DNA of 64,000 nt from Flavobacteriales bacterium (GTDB lineage: Bacteria; Bacteroidota; Bacteroidia; Flavobacteriales_F; PHOS-HE28): NCBI GenBank assembly GCA_019912395.1, contig JAIOIH010000066.1, forward strand, positions 1 to 64,000. The letters run 5' to 3'. Below the pieces are notes generated by a model. It was not told where the DNA came from and searched no databases. It saw only the letters and a list, made by a program, of their open reading frames with translations. Below are positions 1,290 to 28,775 of this stretch, in pieces (the first letter of the stretch is position 1; each line of letters opens with the position of its first letter). Position numbers and translations under genes: made by a program.

Positions 1290-3464
<2,175 letters not shown>

Positions 3465-3515: not shown

Positions 3516-5051
3516 CTACTGATCGCTCAACCTCAAGGTGTAGATATCCTCACGGCGGTCCTTCAAATTCTGGACGCTTCCCCGGTGGTGCAGGTCCTTC
3601 AGCAGGCTCAGGTCCACGTCCACCACCAGCACCATTTCGGTGTTGGCCGTGGCCTCGCCCTTGATGCCGGACGCAGGGAATGCAAAATCGCAGGGGGTGA
3701 ACACGGCACTCTGGGCGTACTGGATGTCCATGTTCTTCACCTTCGGAAGGTTGCCCACGCTGCCGGCGATGGCCACGAAGCACTCGTTCTCGATGGCCCG
3801 TGCCATGGCGCACAGGCGTACCCGCGAGAAGGCGTTCTGGGTATCGGTGAGGAACGGGATGAACAGTAGCTGCATGCCCTGCAAGGCCAATAGGCGCACC
3901 AGCTCGGGGAATTCGCAGTCATAGCAGATCACCACGCCCACCTTGCCGCAGTCGGTGTCGAACACCCGGACCTGCCGGCCGCCGTGTATGCCCCATGCGC
4001 TCTTTTCGTTCGGGGTTACGTGAACCTTTTCGTAGCGCTCCCAACTGCCATCGCGGCGGCACAGGAAGCCCATGTTGTAGAGGATGCCGCCCTCCACCAT
4101 CGGCATGCTGCCGGTCACGATGTTCACATTGTACTTCATCGCCGCCTTCACCATGTAGTCACGGATGGGGATGGTGTGCTCGGCAAGGCTACGGATCGCC
4201 TCCGCCTCGTTCTGGTCGTCGTACATGGCCATCAACGGGGCGTTGAAGAGCTCGGGGAACACCGCGAAATCGCTGCCATAGCCGCTCACCACTTGCAGGA
4301 AGAAATCCAAGTGTTCGAACAGCCCGTCGATGCCGGCATAGTTGCGCATCTTCCACTGCACCAGGCCCAGGCGCACGTTGCGCGACCAACTGCCGCTCAT
4401 GTCCGCCTCGTTGTGGTAGATGTTGTCCCACTCCATCAAGGTGGCGTACTCCATGGAGTTCACGTCGTCCGGCATGTAGCCTTTCAGCAGGCGCACCACG
4501 TGGAAATCATTGGAGAGCTGGAAGGAGAGCACGGGGTCATGGATCACCTTTTCACGCACCTTTGTGATGTATTGCTTCGGCGTGAGCTTCTTGGCGTGCT
4601 TGTGGTAGTTGGGGATGCGGCCGCCGAACATCACGGAGCGCAGGTTGAGGTGTTCGCAGAGTTCCTTGCGGGCCTCGTACAAGCGCCTTCCCAGCCGTTT
4701 GCCCCGGTATTCCGGATGGACGAACACCTCTATACCATAGAGCACATTGCCCTTCCGGTCGTGTGTGTTGAAGGTATAGCCGCCGGTGGCCTTCATGTAG
4801 GTGTGATCCAGACCGAGCTTGTCAACGTCCACGATGATGGTGAGCGCACAACCCGCCAACTTCCCGTTCACGAACACGCCGAGCTGGCCTTCGGGAAACA
4901 GGCCCAGCAATCTGGCTATGGTCTCGCGCTTCCATAGCCCTCCGCTCCAATCGGGGTAGGCGGCGTTCATGGCGGAAGCGAAATCATCAAAGGCGTCCAT
5001 GGTCAAGGGGCGCACCTCGACCTTCTTCAACGTGCTTCTCTTTTTGCTCAT
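3516..5051 (-). CDS. Bifunctional GNAT acetyltransferase / carbon-nitrogen hydrolase
   Basis: Cytoplasmic 511-aa fusion of an N-terminal GNAT acetyltransferase (about residues 10-215) and a C-terminal nitrilase-superfamily amidohydrolase (about 225-500). The GNAT part shows HPEYRGKRLGRRLYE, the acetyl-CoA loop. The nitrilase part shows the Glu-Lys-Cys triad in order: FPELF, YEKVHVTPNE and VICYDCEFPE. Start at 5051 chosen over 5144: it has a clear AGGAG ribosome site and overlaps the stop of the DUF389 gene as ATGA, so the two are translationally coupled. This fusion is common in Bacteroidota (YhcX-like); its substrate is not known to me. Confidence 0.93.
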   Translation of the reverse strand: MSKKRSTLKKVEVRPLTMDAFDDFASAMNAAYPDWSGGLWKRETIARLLGLFPEGQLGVFVNGKLAGCALTIIVDVDKLGLDHTYMKATGGYTFNTHDRKGNVLYGIEVFVHPEYRGKRLGRRLYEARKELCEHLNLRSVMFGGRIPNYHKHAKKLTPKQYITKVREKVIHDPVLSFQLSNDFHVVRLLKGYMPDDVNSMEYATLMEWDNIYHNEADMSGSWSRNVRLGLVQWKMRNYAGIDGLFEHLDFFLQVVSGYGSDFAVFPELFNAPLMAMYDDQNEAEAIRSLAEHTIPIRDYMVKAAMKYNVNIVTGSMPMVEGGILYNMGFLCRRDGSWERYEKVHVTPNEKSAWGIHGGRQVRVFDTDCGKVGVVICYDCEFPELVRLLALQGMQLLFIPFLTDTQNAFSRVRLCAMARAIENECFVAIAGSVGNLPKVKNMDIQYAQSAVFTPCDFAFPASGIKGEATANTEMVLVVDVDLSLLKDLHHRGSVQNLKDRREDIYTLRLSDQ

Positions 5052-6545: not shown

Positions 6546-7454
6546 TTATTTGCGTATGGAGATGTCCATCGGAGGCACTCCCACGACTTGGAAGGTTGCC
6601 GAGGCGAACCTGATGCGGCCTTCCGTGGCCTCCACTTCCTTCAATATTCTCGTGAACAACGCGTCCTTTGTGCCGCGACGGTTCTTGTAACCGACCACAT
6701 AGCGCAGGGTGTATTCCACCCAATTGTCATTGAAGACGAGCGTTACCCACGGCTGGGTGCGGGCATCCTCCACCATGAACTTGGTCACCATGCCCTTCCA
6801 TTTGGCTTGCGAACTGTCGGAGAGCCCGCCCGCCACCTCATCCAGTACGGTCCCAAAGAGCTCCCGGGCCTCCTCGTAGTCGCTGCCGAACATCACCGGC
6901 ACCTTGATCTCATCCCATAGGAAGGGGAAATCGCTGGAATAGTTGAAGACGGGTTCCTTGAAGACGAAGCTGTTCGCCACCAGTACGATTCGGCCATTGT
7001 ACAGGTCTCCATCCACCCACTGGCCGATCTCCATGATCGTGGTGCGCAGCACGCCGATGTCGATCACATCACCTTTGACACCGCCGAGCTGTACACGATC
7101 CCCGGTGCGGTAGAAGCCGGCGAACATGATCGCGAGCCAACCCGCTACCGAGGCGATCACTTCCTGCAGGGCAAAAGCGATCCCCGCCCCCGCGACGCCC
7201 AATGCCACGGTGAGACCGCCCAACCTTTCACTGTATACCACGGTGAGCAGCACGATCACCAGCACGAAACCTCCGAGGTCCAAGAGCTTTCGTGCCCTGT
7301 ATTTGGCATCAGCCTGCTCCATCCGCGTGGTGAAGCGCACCTTGAGGAATTTGACGAGCGCCCAGATCAATGCGATCCCGATCCCAATGACCACCAAGCG
7401 TCCCACCGTGGGGTTCATCAACCACTCGCGCACGAATTCGTCCATTTCGCTCAT
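6546..7454 (-). CDS. MscS-family mechanosensitive ion channel (302 aa)
   Basis: Small inner-membrane channel predicted to open under membrane tension. Two or three hydrophobic segments lie in the first 110 residues, followed by the pore helix with VALGVAGAGIAFALQEVIASVAGW and the MscS beta domain (GDRVQLGGVKGDVIDIGVLRTTI). Start at 7454 (MSEMDEF) is chosen because its ATG overlaps the stop of the upstream channel gene as ATGA; the frame is open further to 7790 but that part is antisense-like and has no motif. Second of three MscS homologues within 4 kb. Confidence 0.92.
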   Translation of the reverse strand: MSEMDEFVREWLMNPTVGRLVVIGIGIALIWALVKFLKVRFTTRMEQADAKYRARKLLDLGGFVLVIVLLTVVYSERLGGLTVALGVAGAGIAFALQEVIASVAGWLAIMFAGFYRTGDRVQLGGVKGDVIDIGVLRTTIMEIGQWVDGDLYNGRIVLVANSFVFKEPVFNYSSDFPFLWDEIKVPVMFGSDYEEARELFGTVLDEVAGGLSDSSQAKWKGMVTKFMVEDARTQPWVTLVFNDNWVEYTLRYVVGYKNRRGTKDALFTRILKEVEATEGRIRFASATFQVVGVPPMDISIRK

Positions 7455-22371: not shown

Positions 22372-22423
22372 TATTGATCGCCGTGTTTGATGTTGCGGAT
22401 GCAAAGGAACGGATGAAAGCGTT

Positions 22424-22598
22424 GGGCGTGCCCCTTCCTCCGCGCGCAAGCCCCCGCACAGGGTCCGGCTGTCCGCTGTGGCCGTCCTGGTCCGCACTGC
22501 GGCACATCGGGCTGCGGGGTCCCGTCTGCGCCGGGCCTCCTCGCTCCGTGTGCCGCAAGCGCGTCCTGTGGCCGGGCCGCCGCTGCCATCCGTCACGC
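22424..22598 (+). ncRNA. GGGCG-type structured intergenic element, copy A
   Basis: A 175-bp GC-rich element between divergent kdnB and the DoxX-like gene. It runs TTGGGCGTGCC at the start, GTCCGGCTGTCCGCTGTGG at about 22464-22482, a variable hairpin (TGCGGCACA near 22499 pairing with TGTGCCGCA near 22552), and GCCGCTGCCATCCGTCACGC at the end. The same plan with other internal sequence is seen in copy B (27969-28082). From memory, elements of this plan are frequent between genes of Bacteroidota and are often mis-called as ORFs; I know of no assigned function. RNA or mobile-DNA nature is undecided; typed ncRNA as the nearest class. Confidence 0.45.
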
Positions 22599-22643
22599 AA
22601 AAGTCCGCTCAGGGGTTATCCTTGTGGCCTATTCCGGACCGCC

Positions 22644-23081
22644 ATGAACTGTGTTACCGATCTCCTGGCCGGTTGCGGCCTCTCCTCCGCCAACCTGCTG
22701 CAACTGGCCTTCGCCGCCTTCGTCGCCGTGCTCTTTATCCAGTCCGGCCTGGACAAGGTCTTCAACTGGACCAGCGAGAAGAACTTCTACAAGGCGCACT
22801 TCAGCAAGAGCATCCTCAAGGGCTCGGTCTTCCTCCTGATGCCCGTGATCACGCTGGTGGAGCTTTCCGCCGGGCTGCTTTCCGCCGCAGGCTTTATCCA
22901 GGTCCTCTTCACCGGCAACACCGGCATCGGCACGCTCGGCATGCTCTGCGCAGTTGCGGGCCTTACCATGCTGTTCTTCGGCCAACGCGTGGCCAAGGAT
23001 TACAAAGGGGCTGCGGTGCTGGTGCCCTATTTTCTGATGGCCGCTGCCGGGCTGTATGTGTTCGGCGCTGGTGCTTGCTGA
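22644..23081 (+). CDS. DoxX-like small membrane protein
   Basis: A 145-aa inner-membrane protein with four hydrophobic segments. FAAFVAVLFIQSGLDKVFNW at residues 19-38 is typical of the DoxX/MauE-like superfamily. Start 22644 excludes the upstream in-frame stretch, which is the GGGCG element and not protein-coding. Convergent with the propeller gene at 23091, the two stops being 9 bp apart with a small GTCCG/CGGAC hairpin between them. Family members are linked to quinone or thiol redox chemistry; nothing here narrows the role. Confidence 0.75.
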   Translation: MNCVTDLLAGCGLSSANLLQLAFAAFVAVLFIQSGLDKVFNWTSEKNFYKAHFSKSILKGSVFLLMPVITLVELSAGLLSAAGFIQVLFTGNTGIGTLGMLCAVAGLTMLFFGQRVAKDYKGAAVLVPYFLMAAAGLYVFGAGAC

Positions 23082-23090
23082 ACCGTCCGC

Positions 23091-24755
23091 TTACGGACGT
23101 ACCACCATCAGCCTCGCGGTTGATCGCGCACGGGATCCCATGGCCTCCAGGTTATAGCTGCCCGGTGGTAGGCTACTGACGTCCAATATCACCGGATCGC
23201 CCGGGGAGGTCACGGTTCGCTCCAAGGCCACGCGCCCAGTGCTGTCCAGGATACGCAGTTGTATCGATGCGCCCAATGTGCCTGCCCCTCCCACCGTGAC
23301 CCGCCGATCCGCAGGGTTGGGGGTCAACAGAAGCGGATCCCGCGCTTCAGGTCCGTCTACTCCGAGCGGAATGAAATCCACCGGGACACAGACATGGTTA
23401 TCGGAAGGATCGCGGTCAGCCACCGCGTCCGGAGCCAACGCCGTGATGCAGACTTGCCCGTAAGTGCTCAGGATCTCGCTCAGCGGGGTGTCCTTCGCCG
23501 TATGCACCACCCCAAAAGGCAAAGTGACCGTATCACCCGGTGCAACGGCCAGGTCGGTCGGATCCAGGCGATGCTGTAGCGAGAGGCAGGTCATGTTGAA
23601 CCACACGCCGTGCAAGGTGACCAATACGCTGCGCAGTGTATCCGGACCGTGGTTCACCACGTGTGCGGTCACATCGGCTTTCGCGTCCCACCAAATATCC
23701 CCGGAGCCCGACGGTACGGCCCAGGCCGAATCCACCTCGACCAGGATCTCCACGTCCTGGTGGTGGACCGCGGCATCCCCATCCAGGGAAAGCTTGCGGA
23801 AAACACCCGTGTACCGCCCGCTGATATTCGTGTAGCCCACTTCATGGACGGCGCCGTCGCCGATGACGCAACCGGTGTGCGTATAGGCCGGAACCGAAGG
23901 CCACGGGAAGAGCAAGGTGGCCGTGCCGCCCGCATCCAAGTGATAGAGCCCGTAGGCGGTTTGCACGTACAGGCCGCTGCTCGTCCACACGAAGGAGCTG
24001 TTTGTCCCCGCACCCGATACGATGGTGGTTCCATTAAGCTCCAAGGCCGGGCCAAAGCGACGGATAGTGTCACCGACCAAGGCGAAAAGCTGGGTGCCTT
24101 CCATCTGCAGGTCCAGCACGCCTTCGCCAATGGGCGTATCGGATAGGACCATACCGTTCAGGCCGACCAATTTCAGATCGGTCCCGTCCGCCACGAAAAG
24201 AGTGGAATCGCTGGCCCAATGCAACTTCTTGATGTTGCTCTCATCCCCCAAGGTGAATTGGCCGATCTGCTGGCCATCCCAGCCATCCAGGATCCGCACG
24301 GCCTTGAGCGAGGCAACAGCCAGTGGTCCCCCACTCCCTCCGTATAAGCCCTTGGCCAAGAGGAAGAAATCCTCCCAACCCTCTTGCCCGGTCGGGGCCA
24401 GTTCATGCTCCCAGAGCACATTCCCCAATGCATCAAATCGCCTGATCCGGCCCGGCCCAAGGACATCACAATAGTCAGCGATGCCCACCTGGATCAATTC
24501 GCCGTCCGGCATGGCGATCATATCGCCCCCTCCTTGGCCGGTCATATACGAGTCGCCTATCTCCCAATCCACTGAAGCATCGGCATTCCGTACGCTGAGC
24601 ATATTTCCTTCAGCAGCATAGGCCATGCGGCCATCGCTCAGGTAAATGACGCGATGGAAGGTGAGGGCATCGGAACGTTGTTCGGCCAGTTCCCACCATT
24701 GGGCGGGTGCAACGAGCATGGCCAAGGCTAAGGGAATGGTGAGCAGGATGCGCAT
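23091..24755 (-). CDS. Secreted propeller-like protein with T9SS sorting domain (554 aa)
   Basis: Exported protein: signal peptide (MRILLTIPLALAMLVAPAQ), a WD/PQQ-like propeller region with repeated YLSDGRMAYAAEG, IAMPDGELIQVG and RRFDALGNVLWEHE patterns (about residues 20-310), a CARDB-like domain (about 320-460) and a type A T9SS sorting domain (LTPNPADRRVTV to RLMVVRP). It is a paralogue of the neighbouring gene at 24866: both begin W-ELA-QRS and share nearly the same sorting domain. Function unknown; likely surface or released. Confidence 0.85.
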   Translation of the reverse strand: MRILLTIPLALAMLVAPAQWWELAEQRSDALTFHRVIYLSDGRMAYAAEGNMLSVRNADASVDWEIGDSYMTGQGGGDMIAMPDGELIQVGIADYCDVLGPGRIRRFDALGNVLWEHELAPTGQEGWEDFFLLAKGLYGGSGGPLAVASLKAVRILDGWDGQQIGQFTLGDESNIKKLHWASDSTLFVADGTDLKLVGLNGMVLSDTPIGEGVLDLQMEGTQLFALVGDTIRRFGPALELNGTTIVSGAGTNSSFVWTSSGLYVQTAYGLYHLDAGGTATLLFPWPSVPAYTHTGCVIGDGAVHEVGYTNISGRYTGVFRKLSLDGDAAVHHQDVEILVEVDSAWAVPSGSGDIWWDAKADVTAHVVNHGPDTLRSVLVTLHGVWFNMTCLSLQHRLDPTDLAVAPGDTVTLPFGVVHTAKDTPLSEILSTYGQVCITALAPDAVADRDPSDNHVCVPVDFIPLGVDGPEARDPLLLTPNPADRRVTVGGAGTLGASIQLRILDSTGRVALERTVTSPGDPVILDVSSLPPGSYNLEAMGSRARSTARLMVVRP

Positions 24756-24865
24756 GGAACGAAGTTTTGTTGTAGTTCCAAGGTAGGGATACTTCCGGGT
24801 TTCGGCTCCGGCCTATCGGGAACTGCCGTGATGGACTCCGGTCATCAAGCCCTCGAACACCGACA

Positions 24866-26512
24866 TCAGGGACGCACCACCATCAGCTTGGCGGTGGAAC
24901 GCGCACGGGGTCCCATGGCATCCAAGATGTACGTGCCAGGCGGCAGGCTGCTGATGTCCAATTCCACCCGATCGCCCGGGGAGGCCACTGTTCGCTCCAA
25001 GGCTACGTGCCCGGTGCCATCCAGGTAACGTAGGCGGAGCTGATCGCCCAAGGCGGCCAAGCCGGATACCGTGCAGGCATTGGAAGCCGGGGTCGGGAAC
25101 AAGGCGAGCGGGGCAATGCTCTCCTGCCTTGCCACGCTAAGCACAAAATCCACGGAAGCACATGCCGTATTGTCCTGCGGCGCACGGTCCGCAAGATCGT
25201 CCGGCGCCAAGGCTACGATGCAGATATCACCGTCCCCGGCGGCTTGTGCCGAAGAGAGGCCCAGCGCAACATCCACCGCACCGAACGGAAGCCTCAGCGT
25301 ATCCCCCGGTGCCAATGCGAAGCCCGATGTATCGATACGGTTCGTGGGTTGCTCGCACAGTATCCAAGGCACTTGGATCCACATGCTCAGCACAACACTG
25401 CGGAGCGTGTCCGAGCCGTGATTCACAAAGAGACCCGTGATGTCCGCATGCCGGTCCCAAGGATAGAACCCGCCCACGAACTCCGTCCATGTTGAATCAA
25501 CATGAAGGATCACTTCCACGTCCTGGTCGTGCTGTACCGCTTCACCGCTCATGGAAAGCGTGCGGATGATCCCGGTGGACCTCCCGCTTATATCGGTGTT
25601 CCCAAGTGAAAACACGGTACCGTTGCGGACCGCACAACCGGTGGTGCTTAAGCCGGGCAGTGCAGGCCAAGGAAAGAGGAATGTGGGAGTACCGTCCGGG
25701 GCCAGATGATAAAGGCCCGCTGCGGTATTCACAAGAAGGCCGCTGTCCGAAACGACGAACCGGCTGTTCCAATCCATGTTCGGAAACGCTACGATGCCCA
25801 GTGGAGATAGATCAGCGCCAAAGCGTCGAATACTGTCATTGGCCAGCACGAACAGCTGTTGTTCATACCAACGCATGTCCTCCACGAATGGCCCGATGGT
25901 ATTTGAATTAAGCATCGCCCCACCGATGTCCACGAGTTGCAAGTCCGTGCCCTGGACAATGAACAGCGAGCTATCCTCCGCCCACATGATCTTTCGGATG
26001 TCCGAGGTTAGGGCCTGATAGCCACCTGCCACGTTCCCATCCATGTCCATGACATACACGGTATCCTGCGAAGCCACCGCCACATGTCCGATCGACCCCT
26101 TCGCCGCCATCGTGACCATGTATCCCGTTTGCGATTCGATGGTCCTTTCCCAAAGCACGCTGCCATCCGGGGCATACCGGCGCACGCGGCTGTCCGGGCC
26201 GTAATAATCACAGCCATCCTTGACCCCAACGTGGAGTATGCCGCTGTCCGGCAACAGGACCACCTCGCCCACACCTTGGCCCGTACAGTAGGTATCGATA
26301 TGCTCCCATACTATCGTTCCGTCGCCATTCCGAACAGTGATCATGTGGCTGCCCGCAAAGCTCGCACGCCCGACCACCGCCCAACGGCCACCGCCGACCG
26401 GGAGCGCTTGGTCGAAATAGATCTCCTCCGAACGTTGGTCCGCCAATTCCCACAACTGCGCCTGTGCTTGGAAGGAGAGGGTGCCAAGAAGTACGAGTAG
26501 GATGTGTCGCAT
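24866..26512 (-). CDS. Secreted propeller-like protein with T9SS sorting domain (548 aa), tandem paralogue
   Basis: Same architecture as the gene downstream at 23091: signal peptide (MRHILLVLLGTLSFQAQAQ), propeller blades (LLPDSGILHVGVKDG, RRYAPDGSVLWERT), a CARDB-like domain (HADITGLFVNHGSDTLRSV) and a type A sorting domain (LFPTPASNACTV to KLMVVRP). Start 26512 is chosen at the signal peptide; 77 upstream codons in frame have no support. The 3' 150-200 bases are much more similar to the paralogue than the middle, which suggests a recent duplication with constraint or gene conversion on the sorting domain. Confidence 0.85.
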   Translation of the reverse strand: MRHILLVLLGTLSFQAQAQLWELADQRSEEIYFDQALPVGGGRWAVVGRASFAGSHMITVRNGDGTIVWEHIDTYCTGQGVGEVVLLPDSGILHVGVKDGCDYYGPDSRVRRYAPDGSVLWERTIESQTGYMVTMAAKGSIGHVAVASQDTVYVMDMDGNVAGGYQALTSDIRKIMWAEDSSLFIVQGTDLQLVDIGGAMLNSNTIGPFVEDMRWYEQQLFVLANDSIRRFGADLSPLGIVAFPNMDWNSRFVVSDSGLLVNTAAGLYHLAPDGTPTFLFPWPALPGLSTTGCAVRNGTVFSLGNTDISGRSTGIIRTLSMSGEAVQHDQDVEVILHVDSTWTEFVGGFYPWDRHADITGLFVNHGSDTLRSVVLSMWIQVPWILCEQPTNRIDTSGFALAPGDTLRLPFGAVDVALGLSSAQAAGDGDICIVALAPDDLADRAPQDNTACASVDFVLSVARQESIAPLALFPTPASNACTVSGLAALGDQLRLRYLDGTGHVALERTVASPGDRVELDISSLPPGTYILDAMGPRARSTAKLMVVRP

Positions 26513-26614
26513 CGGGCTTGGGTTTGAATTTGCAGGAGGGCGCACTTCGATAGACACGGTGAAGCTATGATCTGCTGCCTGTGCGGTGCGAGGCTGGATC
26601 CTCTTCGGGGAGAC

Positions 26615-26656
26615 ACTGGTATGTTCTGTAGCAATCCACGAGCGTGGATGCACGCG
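26615..26656 (+). repeat. REP-like palindromic repeat, copy 1 (diverged)
   Basis: CTGTAGCA followed by CCACGAGCGTGG (5-bp arms) and CACGCG. Aligns with the repeats at 27899-27961 and 28776-28839 flanking the IS200 transposase. Lies between a T9SS cargo gene and the GNAT-like gene. Confidence 0.5.
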
Positions 26657-26670
26657 TAATTGAAGGAACA

Positions 26671-27795
26671 TCAAGAGATCATCCGCGCATAGACCCGGTA
26701 TCGTTTCCAAACCCGTGCGCCCAATCGTTCCAACTCCGCGCACATCCTGGTGTTGCGCTCCATGACCAGGTGGCTGTCCAAGTGGGTGAAGCCATGGGCC
26801 CGCGCCGCATCGAACAAGGAAACACCCAACGCTGCCGTAAGCCCTTTCCCTTGCAGGTCCGTGCGCACCGCGCCCAGGAGCAGGTCCATTTGCTTGGACC
26901 GCTTCATGGCCCGAAGGATGTGCAGAAAGCCCAAGGGGAACAGCCTTCCCTTGGCTCGCCGCAGGCCCTCGCTCATGTCCGGGCTCGCGATCACAAAGGC
27001 CACCGGTGTATTGTGATCATCCGCGATCAGATGAACAAGCTCGGGCCGCAGGATGAACATGTACTTCGCGGCCAGGGCATGCATCTCCGCTTCGGCCATC
27101 GGCGTGAAGCCGAGCAGGTGTCCATAGGTTTCGTTCACCAAGCGCAGGACGGGCACTATCCACGGCGTCAATTCGCGCTTGGAGCGGAGCGTGACCCGAT
27201 GCAGGCCATGGTTCCGAAGGCAACGGTCCGCAATGGCGTGATAGCTGGCGGGCAGTTGGGCGGGAATGTCCAGGTAATAGCTCACCAGATCCTCCGAGCG
27301 GCTGTACGCGCAGGCTTCGATATGGGGCGGCAGCCATGCCGGGTTGGTAGGCGTGGCGATCACGGGCAAATGCGTGAAGCCCTCCACCTGCATGCCTTGG
27401 GGATCCTTGTCACTGAAACCGAACGGCCCGATGATGCGGTCCCTGCCCTGCCCGCGCGCCCAGTCTTCCACAGCAGCCAAGAGCAGGCGGACGATTCCCG
27501 CATCGTTGATGCAGTCCAATTGGAAGAAGCGGGCGGTGCGTTCACCATGCGCGGCGTTATGGCTGCGATGGATGATGCCCATGATCCGGCCCACGGCCCG
27601 GTTGCCTTGCCAGGCGATCCAACGCTCCACTTCGCAGTGGGCCAGTTGCGGGTTCCGCTTCGGATCGAGCAGGTCCCGGTCATCACCCAGCAGGGTGGGC
27701 ACCGCATTGGGGCGCCGGTCGGGCAGTTCGAGCGGCAGGGTGAGGTACCGGCGGTGTTCCCTGGCGGAGGCCACTGGCCGCAACTGGATCGGCAT
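26671..27795 (-). CDS. GNAT-superfamily N-acyltransferase-like protein (374 aa)
   Basis: Cytoplasmic protein of the large uncharacterised GNAT-like family with the conserved opening RPVASAREHRRYLTLPLEL and NAVPTLLGDDRDLLDPKRNP. It continues with a duplicated acyltransferase fold; DRIIGPFGFSDKDPQGMQVEGF and QGKGLTAALGVSLFDAARAHG are visible, the latter being the acyl-CoA loop near residue 320. Start 27795 was chosen to match the family; an in-frame ATG at 27855 with GGAAGG just before it would add 20 residues. Substrate unknown. Confidence 0.75.
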   Translation of the reverse strand: MPIQLRPVASAREHRRYLTLPLELPDRRPNAVPTLLGDDRDLLDPKRNPQLAHCEVERWIAWQGNRAVGRIMGIIHRSHNAAHGERTARFFQLDCINDAGIVRLLLAAVEDWARGQGRDRIIGPFGFSDKDPQGMQVEGFTHLPVIATPTNPAWLPPHIEACAYSRSEDLVSYYLDIPAQLPASYHAIADRCLRNHGLHRVTLRSKRELTPWIVPVLRLVNETYGHLLGFTPMAEAEMHALAAKYMFILRPELVHLIADDHNTPVAFVIASPDMSEGLRRAKGRLFPLGFLHILRAMKRSKQMDLLLGAVRTDLQGKGLTAALGVSLFDAARAHGFTHLDSHLVMERNTRMCAELERLGARVWKRYRVYARMIS

Positions 27796-27898
27796 CAGGT
27801 TGGATCGTGCGGCCAAGGTGGGGAAAATCGGGACTTGTCCGATCGGTACGAACATCCTTCCAACTTAAAGACGACTCTCGACCAGGGCGAGCTTCCAC

Positions 27899-27961
27899 AC
27901 TCGTGTGGGATGCACTGGACAGATCTGCGGCTTTGCACGAGCGGGGAGCTCGTGCTGGAGA
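27899..27961 (+). repeat. REP-like palindromic repeat, copy 2 (left of IS200)
   Basis: Contains CTCGTGTGG, CTGGACAGATCTG and the hairpin GCACGAGC-gggga-GCTCGTGC (27935-27955, 8-bp perfect arms). A second palindrome CCACAC-tc-GTGTGG sits at its left edge (27895-27908). Direct-repeat partner at 28776-28839. Confidence 0.75.
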
Positions 27962-27968
27962 TGGAGCT

Positions 27969-28082
27969 GCGTTAGGGATCGCAGCGGAAAGCCCACAGCG
28001 ACCCCGGCTCGTAAGCCGGGGGTGCGAGGACTTGCAGCGAAGAGCCCGACGGCGCGGCGCATTTGGGCGCGCCGGAACGCCC
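27969..28082 (-). ncRNA. GGGCG-type structured intergenic element, copy B
   Basis: Read on the minus strand: GGGCGTTCC start, GTCGGGCTCTTCGCTGCAAG, a variable hairpin CCCCGGCTtacgAGCCGGGG with perfect 8-bp arms, then GGCTTTCCGCTGCGATCCC and TAACGC. Same plan and end words as copy A (22424-22598) but different internal sequence and length (114 against 175 bp). It lies between the left REP-like repeat and the IS200 transposase. Its word CCGCTGCGATCCC differs by one base from CCGCTGCGACCCC in the transposon's inverted repeat, which may link the two. Confidence 0.5.
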
Positions 28083-28160
28083 AAAGCATTTTGCCCCCAA
28101 GGAGATAGCGACCCCGAAGGGCGTCGAAGCATGTTGAACAACCCACTCCATTGGATCCGC

Positions 28161-28186
28161 CCCCGAAGGGGTCGCAGCGGGTGTTC
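28161..28186 (+). repeat. Left inverted repeat of the IS200-like unit
   Basis: 26 bp beginning CCCCGAAGGGGTCGCAGC and ending GGGTGTTC, 30 bases before the transposase start. Its perfect reverse complement occurs at 28662-28687. The first 12 bases also form a CCCC/GGGG mini-hairpin. Confidence 0.85.
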
Positions 28187-28216
28187 TATCTTCACCTTCA
28201 TCCAACCGCCATCGCC

Positions 28217-28660
28217 ATGTCCACCTATTTCAAGCTGCATTACCACATCGTGTTCGGAACGAAGAACCGTGTCGCATGTCTCGACAAGAAATGGCGTACG
28301 CAGTTGTGGGAGTACATGGGTGGTACCATCCGCGGCCTTGGCGGCGTGCCCCATGGCGTTGGCGGCTGGAATGACCATGTGCATCTGCTCATCGACCTGA
28401 AACCCACGCAGGTGATCGCCGATGTGATGAGGGAATTGAAAAAGGCAACCACCGCATGGGTCCGCGAACATGGCGGGCTACCGACGTTCCAATGGCAGGA
28501 GGGCTATGGTGTCTTCACGGTCGGCTGGCGCGAACGCGATGCGATAGAACGCTACATCGCAGGGCAGGAGAACCATCACCGGCAGAAGGCGTTCCGCGAA
28601 GAACTTGTCGAACTGCTGAACGAGGCGGGTGTGGAATTCGATCCGAAATACCTGCCGTGA
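28217..28660 (+). mobile_element. tnpA: IS200/REP-associated tyrosine transposase (TnpA-like, intact)
   Basis: Intact 147-aa single-strand transposase of the Y1 HUH family. The N-terminus MSTYFKLHYHIVFGTKNR is typical of Bacteroidota IS200 members; the HUH motif is HVH at residues 54-56, and the nucleophile is Tyr113 in YIAGQ with the metal-helping Gln117. The end GVEFDPKYL is the usual C-terminus. Start 28217 follows the left inverted repeat. The unit is bracketed by perfect 26-bp inverted repeats (28161-28186, 28662-28687) and outside these by diverged direct copies of a REP-like hairpin, an arrangement typical of REP-associated transposases. Confidence 0.92.
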
Positions 28661-28661
28661 G

Positions 28662-28687
28662 GAACACCCGCTGCGACCCCTTCGGGG
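28662..28687 (-). repeat. Right inverted repeat of the IS200-like unit
   Basis: Starts GAACACCCGCTGCGACCC directly after the transposase stop; perfect reverse complement of 28161-28186. A further GACCCCTTCGGGGTC hairpin follows at about 28724-28738 in the spacer before the right REP-like repeat. Confidence 0.85.
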
Positions 28688-28775
28688 TCGTTTGGCCTTT
28701 GTCTTTTACGAGCTACAGGCCGTGACCCCTTCGGGGTCTTTCACCCTGCTCCCCTTACTAGCGCTAACTTCTGCG

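Follow-up and report, generated by a model that had tools for sequence, protein, structure and literature searches.

The closest described relative of the repeat reported here is Flavo-1 (RF01705), a family of Bacteroidota that was predicted in 2010 without a function and published as an sRNA (Weinberg et al. 2010, PMC2864571). No function for it is given in the literature that we found, and in a transcriptome study of F. psychrophilum its hits were indistinctly sense or antisense to transcribed regions, with many lying outside any (PMC9723704). REP/MITE-type repeats, including the GTAG and CGTC families (PMC3733652), are dispersed, intergenic foldback sequences found at gene 3' ends and bearing unpaired tails, all features shared with the repeat family analysed here, which we call E. 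Like E, the CGTC repeats have no known dedicated transposase (PMC3733652). However, REPs are single hairpins of 20-40 nt, whereas E spans 90-180 nt and contains a three-way junction, and the GTAG tag of REPs is not characteristic of E (GT[AG]G lies in the first 14 bases of 9 of 119 copies). Integron attC sites resemble E in their folded single-strand design, their constant ends, their variable terminal structure and their location after genes. They differ in that E is devoid of core boxes, occurs in inverted pairs and possesses a three-way junction, and no integrase was found linked to it.

The window analysed is a 64,000-nucleotide stretch of a Flavobacteriales bacterium (contig JAIOIH010000066.1). 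An initial annotation of this DNA had proposed two structured intergenic elements, A and B, with common ends around variable hairpins. Both lie where it placed them, with limits now refined to those in Table 1, and they face inward, 5.4 kb apart. A and B are copies of one widespread non-coding foldback repeat family, E. The shared layout, which recurs in the genome of the window as TTTGGGCGTG, hairpin 1, GTCGCGCTTTCCGCTGCAAGTCC, hairpin 2 and GGGCTTTCCGCTGCAATCGCTCACGC at the sites read, is borne out by a covariance model of E built from 16 copies, B included and A not. The model matches B, one of its own members, at 27960-28085 with 90.2 bits (E-value 7e-20) and A, which is outside the model, at 22421-22607 with 21.6 bits (E-value 0.0026). 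Taken alone, the words TTGGGCG (26 occurrences in the window, 15.8 expected) and CCGCTGC (25, 17.4 expected) are hardly above chance; the full arrangement of the two copies is not chance. There is no simple match between A and B, A being a member of a long (about 175 nt) subfamily in which the arm is extended and branched. In an alignment of ten long copies (A and nine others), two-sided changes occur at 22 of 52 predicted pairs. Past the limits of both A and B runs a weakly conserved 3' tail of about 9 nt. No tRNA or tmRNA was found in the window.

Table 1. Features of the two E copies and of the DNA between and beside them (window positions)
Feature	Position	Strand	Remarks
Copy A	22422..22598	+	Long form, about 177 nt; read directly; outer stem GCGTG/CACGC, variable hairpin P1, mid helix CGGCTG/CCATCCG, long branched arm
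Copy A 3' tail	22599..22607	+	Weakly conserved, RAAANNC-type; position counts over 119 copies
DNA between A and B	22599..27968	.	Four ORFs
Small DoxX-like protein	22643-23081	+	No Pfam hit
Por-secretion-tail protein	23091-24755	-	Related to neighbour 24866-26743
Por-secretion-tail protein	24866-26743	-	Related to neighbour 23091-24755
GNAT acetyltransferase	26671-27855	-	
Copy B 3' tail	27960..27968	-	Covariance-model match and position counts over 119 copies
Copy B	27969..28084	-	Short form; read directly; outer stem GCGTT/AACGC, P1 hairpin, mid helix GGGCTC/GATCCC, P2 hairpin
IS200-like Y1 transposase (Y1_Tnp)	28217..28660	+	Pfam E-value 1.5e-23; YIAGQENHH motif; adjoins B

Structurally, E is composed of four helices, the outer stem, the variable P1 hairpin, the mid helix and the long P2 arm, arranged around the three-way junction. 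In the 16-copy set the structure is kept in 91.8% of cells, compared with 35-52% when the partners are slid, and two-sided changes outnumber one-sided changes 50:1 in the MAFFT alignment of these sequences (A2). In 119 distinct copies, drawn from many families, pairing holds in 92.6% of cells (33-59% in slid versions), with 344 two-sided and 19 one-sided changes, in an alignment (A3) that was fitted to the structure of the model and so favours paired cells, and whose copies are related, so that cells are not independent events. The covariation is far above shuffled and slid controls. The initial annotation had proposed a test for covariation, and its reading of selection on structure rather than coding is supported in the 16-copy, 119-copy and long-copy sets alike. 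Its view that the interiors are unrelated yet form a hairpin holds for the hairpin sequences, which do differ; the helix between the two CCGCT words covaries, however, and the words themselves are paired as an internal loop, covarying too in the copies of one genome, G158 (CGTT with CACT). The mid helix additionally contains a conserved C x T mismatch and a T.G pair conserved in 104 of 114 copies, making the two strands of E unequal. The outer stem, the three-way junction, the rarity of wobble pairs, the long subfamily of A and the inward-facing pairs around exchangeable cargo in the genus were all absent from that first description.

The covariance-model search that it had proposed yields more copies across the class, with matches at E-value <= 0.01 in 76 of 149 Bacteroidia genomes, in keeping with its statement that such elements are frequent in Bacteroidota. 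A 22-base pattern finds copies in 11 of 11 congeners and, elsewhere in the class, in one or more further families; a reversed-pattern control stays near zero. The genome of the window (4.13 Mb, 87 contigs) carries about 12 copies; 11 sites match a 19-base pattern of the right end with no more than one mismatch, and these are full copies except for a few that are right halves only. Other genomes hold 11 (G026), 22 (G019) or more than 130 copies (G048, 136 pattern sites). In G127 (L193 and L202), copies are arrayed in tandem, spaced about 89-130 nt apart. At another locus, L066, two copies at 4155-4277 and 6596-6727 are 2.4 kb apart, with an IS3-type transposase-like ORF between them; they have flanks in common, about 45 nt on the left and about 40 nt on the right, and a larger unit has therefore been duplicated.

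The inner part of E is Flavo-1. The two have the mid helix, the CCGCT internal loop and the terminal arm in common, read on opposite strands, whereas the 76 positions of Flavo-1 include neither the outer stem nor the P1 branch. The earlier statement that no function is known was fair, except that this inner part already bears a name in Rfam. At the gathering threshold, Rfam gives no match in the window, A included. At a relaxed threshold, copy B scores 29.6 bits on the opposite strand, below the 42-bit cut-off, and all eight loci scanned, A not among them, match positions 1-76 of 76 on the opposite strand, again below the cut-off; in a second locus set, 4 of 16 reach the gathering score (42 bits), the best with 57.5 bits.

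These matches to the whole Flavo-1 model, the covarying helices, which are the usual mark of an RNA, and the location of copies downstream of stop codons are what would be expected if E were a structured RNA, as its Rfam name implies, acting as an sRNA or a 3'-end mRNA element on the strand opposite to the one first annotated. However, wobble pairs are almost absent from E on either strand. A TPP riboswitch from the same class, used as a control, shows 21 one-sided and 80 two-sided changes, compared with 19 and 344 in E (Fisher p = 7e-6), and when the T.G column and its neighbour are left out of E, the counts become 5 and 342 (Fisher p = 1e-10 against TPP). G.U pairs and A.C pairs, the latter being G.U when read on the opposite strand, are equally rare. 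This near-absence favours folding at the level of DNA and suggests that E works as folded DNA, not RNA, an active form that we infer from cells that are not independent events; avoidance of both A.C and G.T could also reflect an RNA under unusually strict selection. The indistinct sense and antisense hits of the F. psychrophilum study likewise speak against an RNA, and tens to more than 100 copies per genome, together with carriage on phages and plasmids, fit a repeat better than a regulatory RNA. The structured RNA is, in our judgement, doubtful, while ranking second after a foldback element acting as single-stranded DNA, the most likely reading.

The occupancy of orthologous sites by E varies. 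One such site with conserved flanks holds a short copy in two congeners (G010 and G009), a long copy in a third (G008) and none recognisable in a fourth (G020). The site of copy A, which lies between the genes for the iron alcohol dehydrogenase and the DoxX-like protein, is empty in five congeners (G002, G004, G020, G007 and G009); in G006 the copy is present with two mid-helix pairs changed on both sides (TA to CG and GC to AT). E is thus present, absent or replaced in place at orthologous sites, without target duplication, as no excess of equal 4-8-base flanking words was found at any offset tried. A MITE of a DDE transposon was rejected for lack of this duplication. The mobility first suspected from the constant ends gains support from presence and absence, in-place replacement and carriage by plasmids and phages; ordinary gene conversion between repeats could also explain the replacement in place. 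Of 27 class-wide loci, 21 have the gene on the left-end side running toward E, its stop often 10-60 nt away, with ORFs called by length rather than by a trained gene finder. In the G010 flanks of L067 and L072 (query positions 1154-1184 and 3228-3258), a short palindromic GGTCGACCCANNGGGTCGACGC-type repeat adjoins two E copies, and it recurs at many congener sites.

Between A and B, pieces of the interval have orthologs in congeners, arranged differently there; the interval is at most a putative mobile unit. Within it, the related pair of secreted proteins with Por-type sorting tails (23091-26743, minus strand) are encoded next to each other, apparently as a tandem duplication. Turnover of cargo is seen in the slot between fadJ and fadA. 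In seven species, its cargo is different in each, with one E copy facing in from each side, some of the right-hand copies being partial; a single copy without cargo is present in G008, and G133 lacks E there. Because parts of the outer flanks are conserved between species, the borders appear old, in contrast to the changing cargo. The cargo includes an XamI-type restriction-modification fusion, an N6/N4 methylase, a HerA-type ATPase and a Schlafen/AlbA-type protein, and elsewhere in the genome of the window a C5 methylase with a weak ApaLI-like endonuclease match adjoins an E copy. At seven loci (L065, L073, L078, L081, L228, L233 and L234), the fadJ-fadA gap and the gap after fadA resemble defence-gene hotspots in the genus, with restriction-modification and other accessory genes varying per species. 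Neighbouring copies within 6 kb in the genus, counted by hand from the 22-base-pattern copies plus copy A, are 10 inward, 8 tandem and 2 outward (p 0.014). In G048, a manual count over the same 6-kb range gives 4 inward, 3 outward and 3 tandem, with no inward bias; slot behaviour may therefore be peculiar to the genus, and inward-facing pairs do not stand as a general rule. Enrichment of defence genes on the right side of E is clear in this genus only. Homologous recombination within fadJ and fadA, in which the copies would be bystanders, could also account for the cargo turnover.

Cargo that differs between orthologous inward-facing copies in seven species could point to a site-specific recombination site read as a folded single strand in the manner of attC, where inward pairs would allow recombinase-mediated cassette exchange. 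The constant ends with variable tips, the strand-asymmetric conserved mismatches and the location at gene 3' ends agree with such a site. However, the pair of core boxes, RYYYAAC and GTTRRRY at the two ends, is present in 0 of 119 copies, no linked integrase was found, E pairs are inverted whereas integron cassettes all share one orientation, and G048 lacks the inward bias, leaving this explanation improbable.

The Y1 transposase adjoining B raises the possibility that an IS200-like Y1 transposase (RAYT) mobilises E in trans as its REP element. A copy lies near 4 of 30 Y1 loci, and atypical secondary structures have been reported beside subclass 2.6 Y1 genes of Bacteroidetes (PMC6006769). However, Y1_Tnp has no match in the element-rich genomes G019 (22 copies) and G026 (11 copies), on which ground the RAYT explanation was rejected as very unlikely and the transposase of the window is judged not to be the required enzyme of E. 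Additionally, the position of E relative to the transposase varies, GTAG or GTGG near the start is confined to the few copies counted above, and the transposase has its own, different flanking hairpin. This hairpin is seen as inverted copies of GGAACACCCGCTGCGACCCCTTCGGGGTC on both flanks (window 28150-28700); the YIAGQENHH motif places the transposase in subclass 1.2, whose members are without REP elements according to the same survey (PMC6006769). A hairpin similar to GGAACACCCGCTGCGACCCCTTCGGGGTC forms tandem arrays in or beside E copies at three loci (L065, about 4500; L075, about 3900; L082, about 3400).

E is not limited to chromosomes. Matches occur in 39 plasmids, 30 of them conjugative and all from four Bacteroidales genera. 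In the pBF9343-like group the copy is fixed: each of the 30 plasmids covering the query has it between a recombinase gene, which ends no more than about 10 nt from the start of the copy, and an ArdC-like gene downstream. Intergenic copies were also found in tailed-phage contigs, and one ssDNA Microviridae genome carries a copy in its VP2-VP4 gap (64.7 bits). This fixation in the plasmid gap and the Microviridae copy would suit a single-strand initiation site or promoter, used when ssDNA becomes duplex in conjugation or phage infection, with chromosomal copies as passengers. However, E is abundant on chromosomes, and Blast of 50,697 phage records gives one annotated Microviridae genome and one other record only, meaning that ssDNA phages do not need E; we regard an initiation site as slightly less probable again than a RAYT repeat. 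Three high-GC IMG/VR viral contigs (L091, 9281; L094, 9001; L100, 5375) carry short-armed copies (TTTGGGCGTTCCGGCTTCGCCGTCGGGCTCT...), possibly outside Bacteroidota. This short form is absent from E. coli genomes and annotated phages, gives one weak match only among plasmids and, with a strict pattern, none in the genome contigs searched, so any spread beyond Bacteroidota rests on these three contigs, whose hosts are unassigned. The least likely explanation, that selection keeps E at gene ends as a bidirectional terminator or insulator, would account for copies after stop codons and between convergent genes and could shield slot cargo from the fad operon, but many orthologous gaps are without E and no T-run follows the fold in position counts over 119 copies, which also eliminates a Rho-independent terminator.

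We therefore favour, with a probability of about 0.48, a non-autonomous REP/MITE-like foldback element that works as a folded single DNA strand and is moved by a putative enzyme. When the strand is exposed, through replication, conjugation or an ssDNA phage, it would fold into the outer stem, the three-way junction and the mismatched long arm. A putative fold-recognising enzyme would then place E, by copying or exchange, in gaps next to the 3' ends of genes and leave no target duplication, with the stems and the CCGCT internal loop as the probable recognition parts and the hairpin tips free to vary. Where two copies face inward, other cargo, in many cases here defence genes, could take the place of the DNA between them, and the copies themselves may drive this exchange. 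No E-moving enzyme was found, and no movement within one strain was seen.

A bolder proposal, which we consider unlikely, is that Flavo-1 represents a new class of folded-DNA mobile sites common to chromosomes, conjugative plasmids, tailed phages and ssDNA phages, with inward pairs serving as docks that swap defence cassettes without an integron integrase. An Rfam family annotated as a small RNA since 2010 may be a DNA element, as the wobble rarity and the behaviour of the copies argue; if so, many annotations change meaning. The wobble test is simple and could serve for other repeat-like 'RNA' families. Found in about half of the sampled Bacteroidia, on plasmids and phages, and bordering a slot of defence genes, E is a candidate for mediating gene exchange among bacteria of the gut and the environment.
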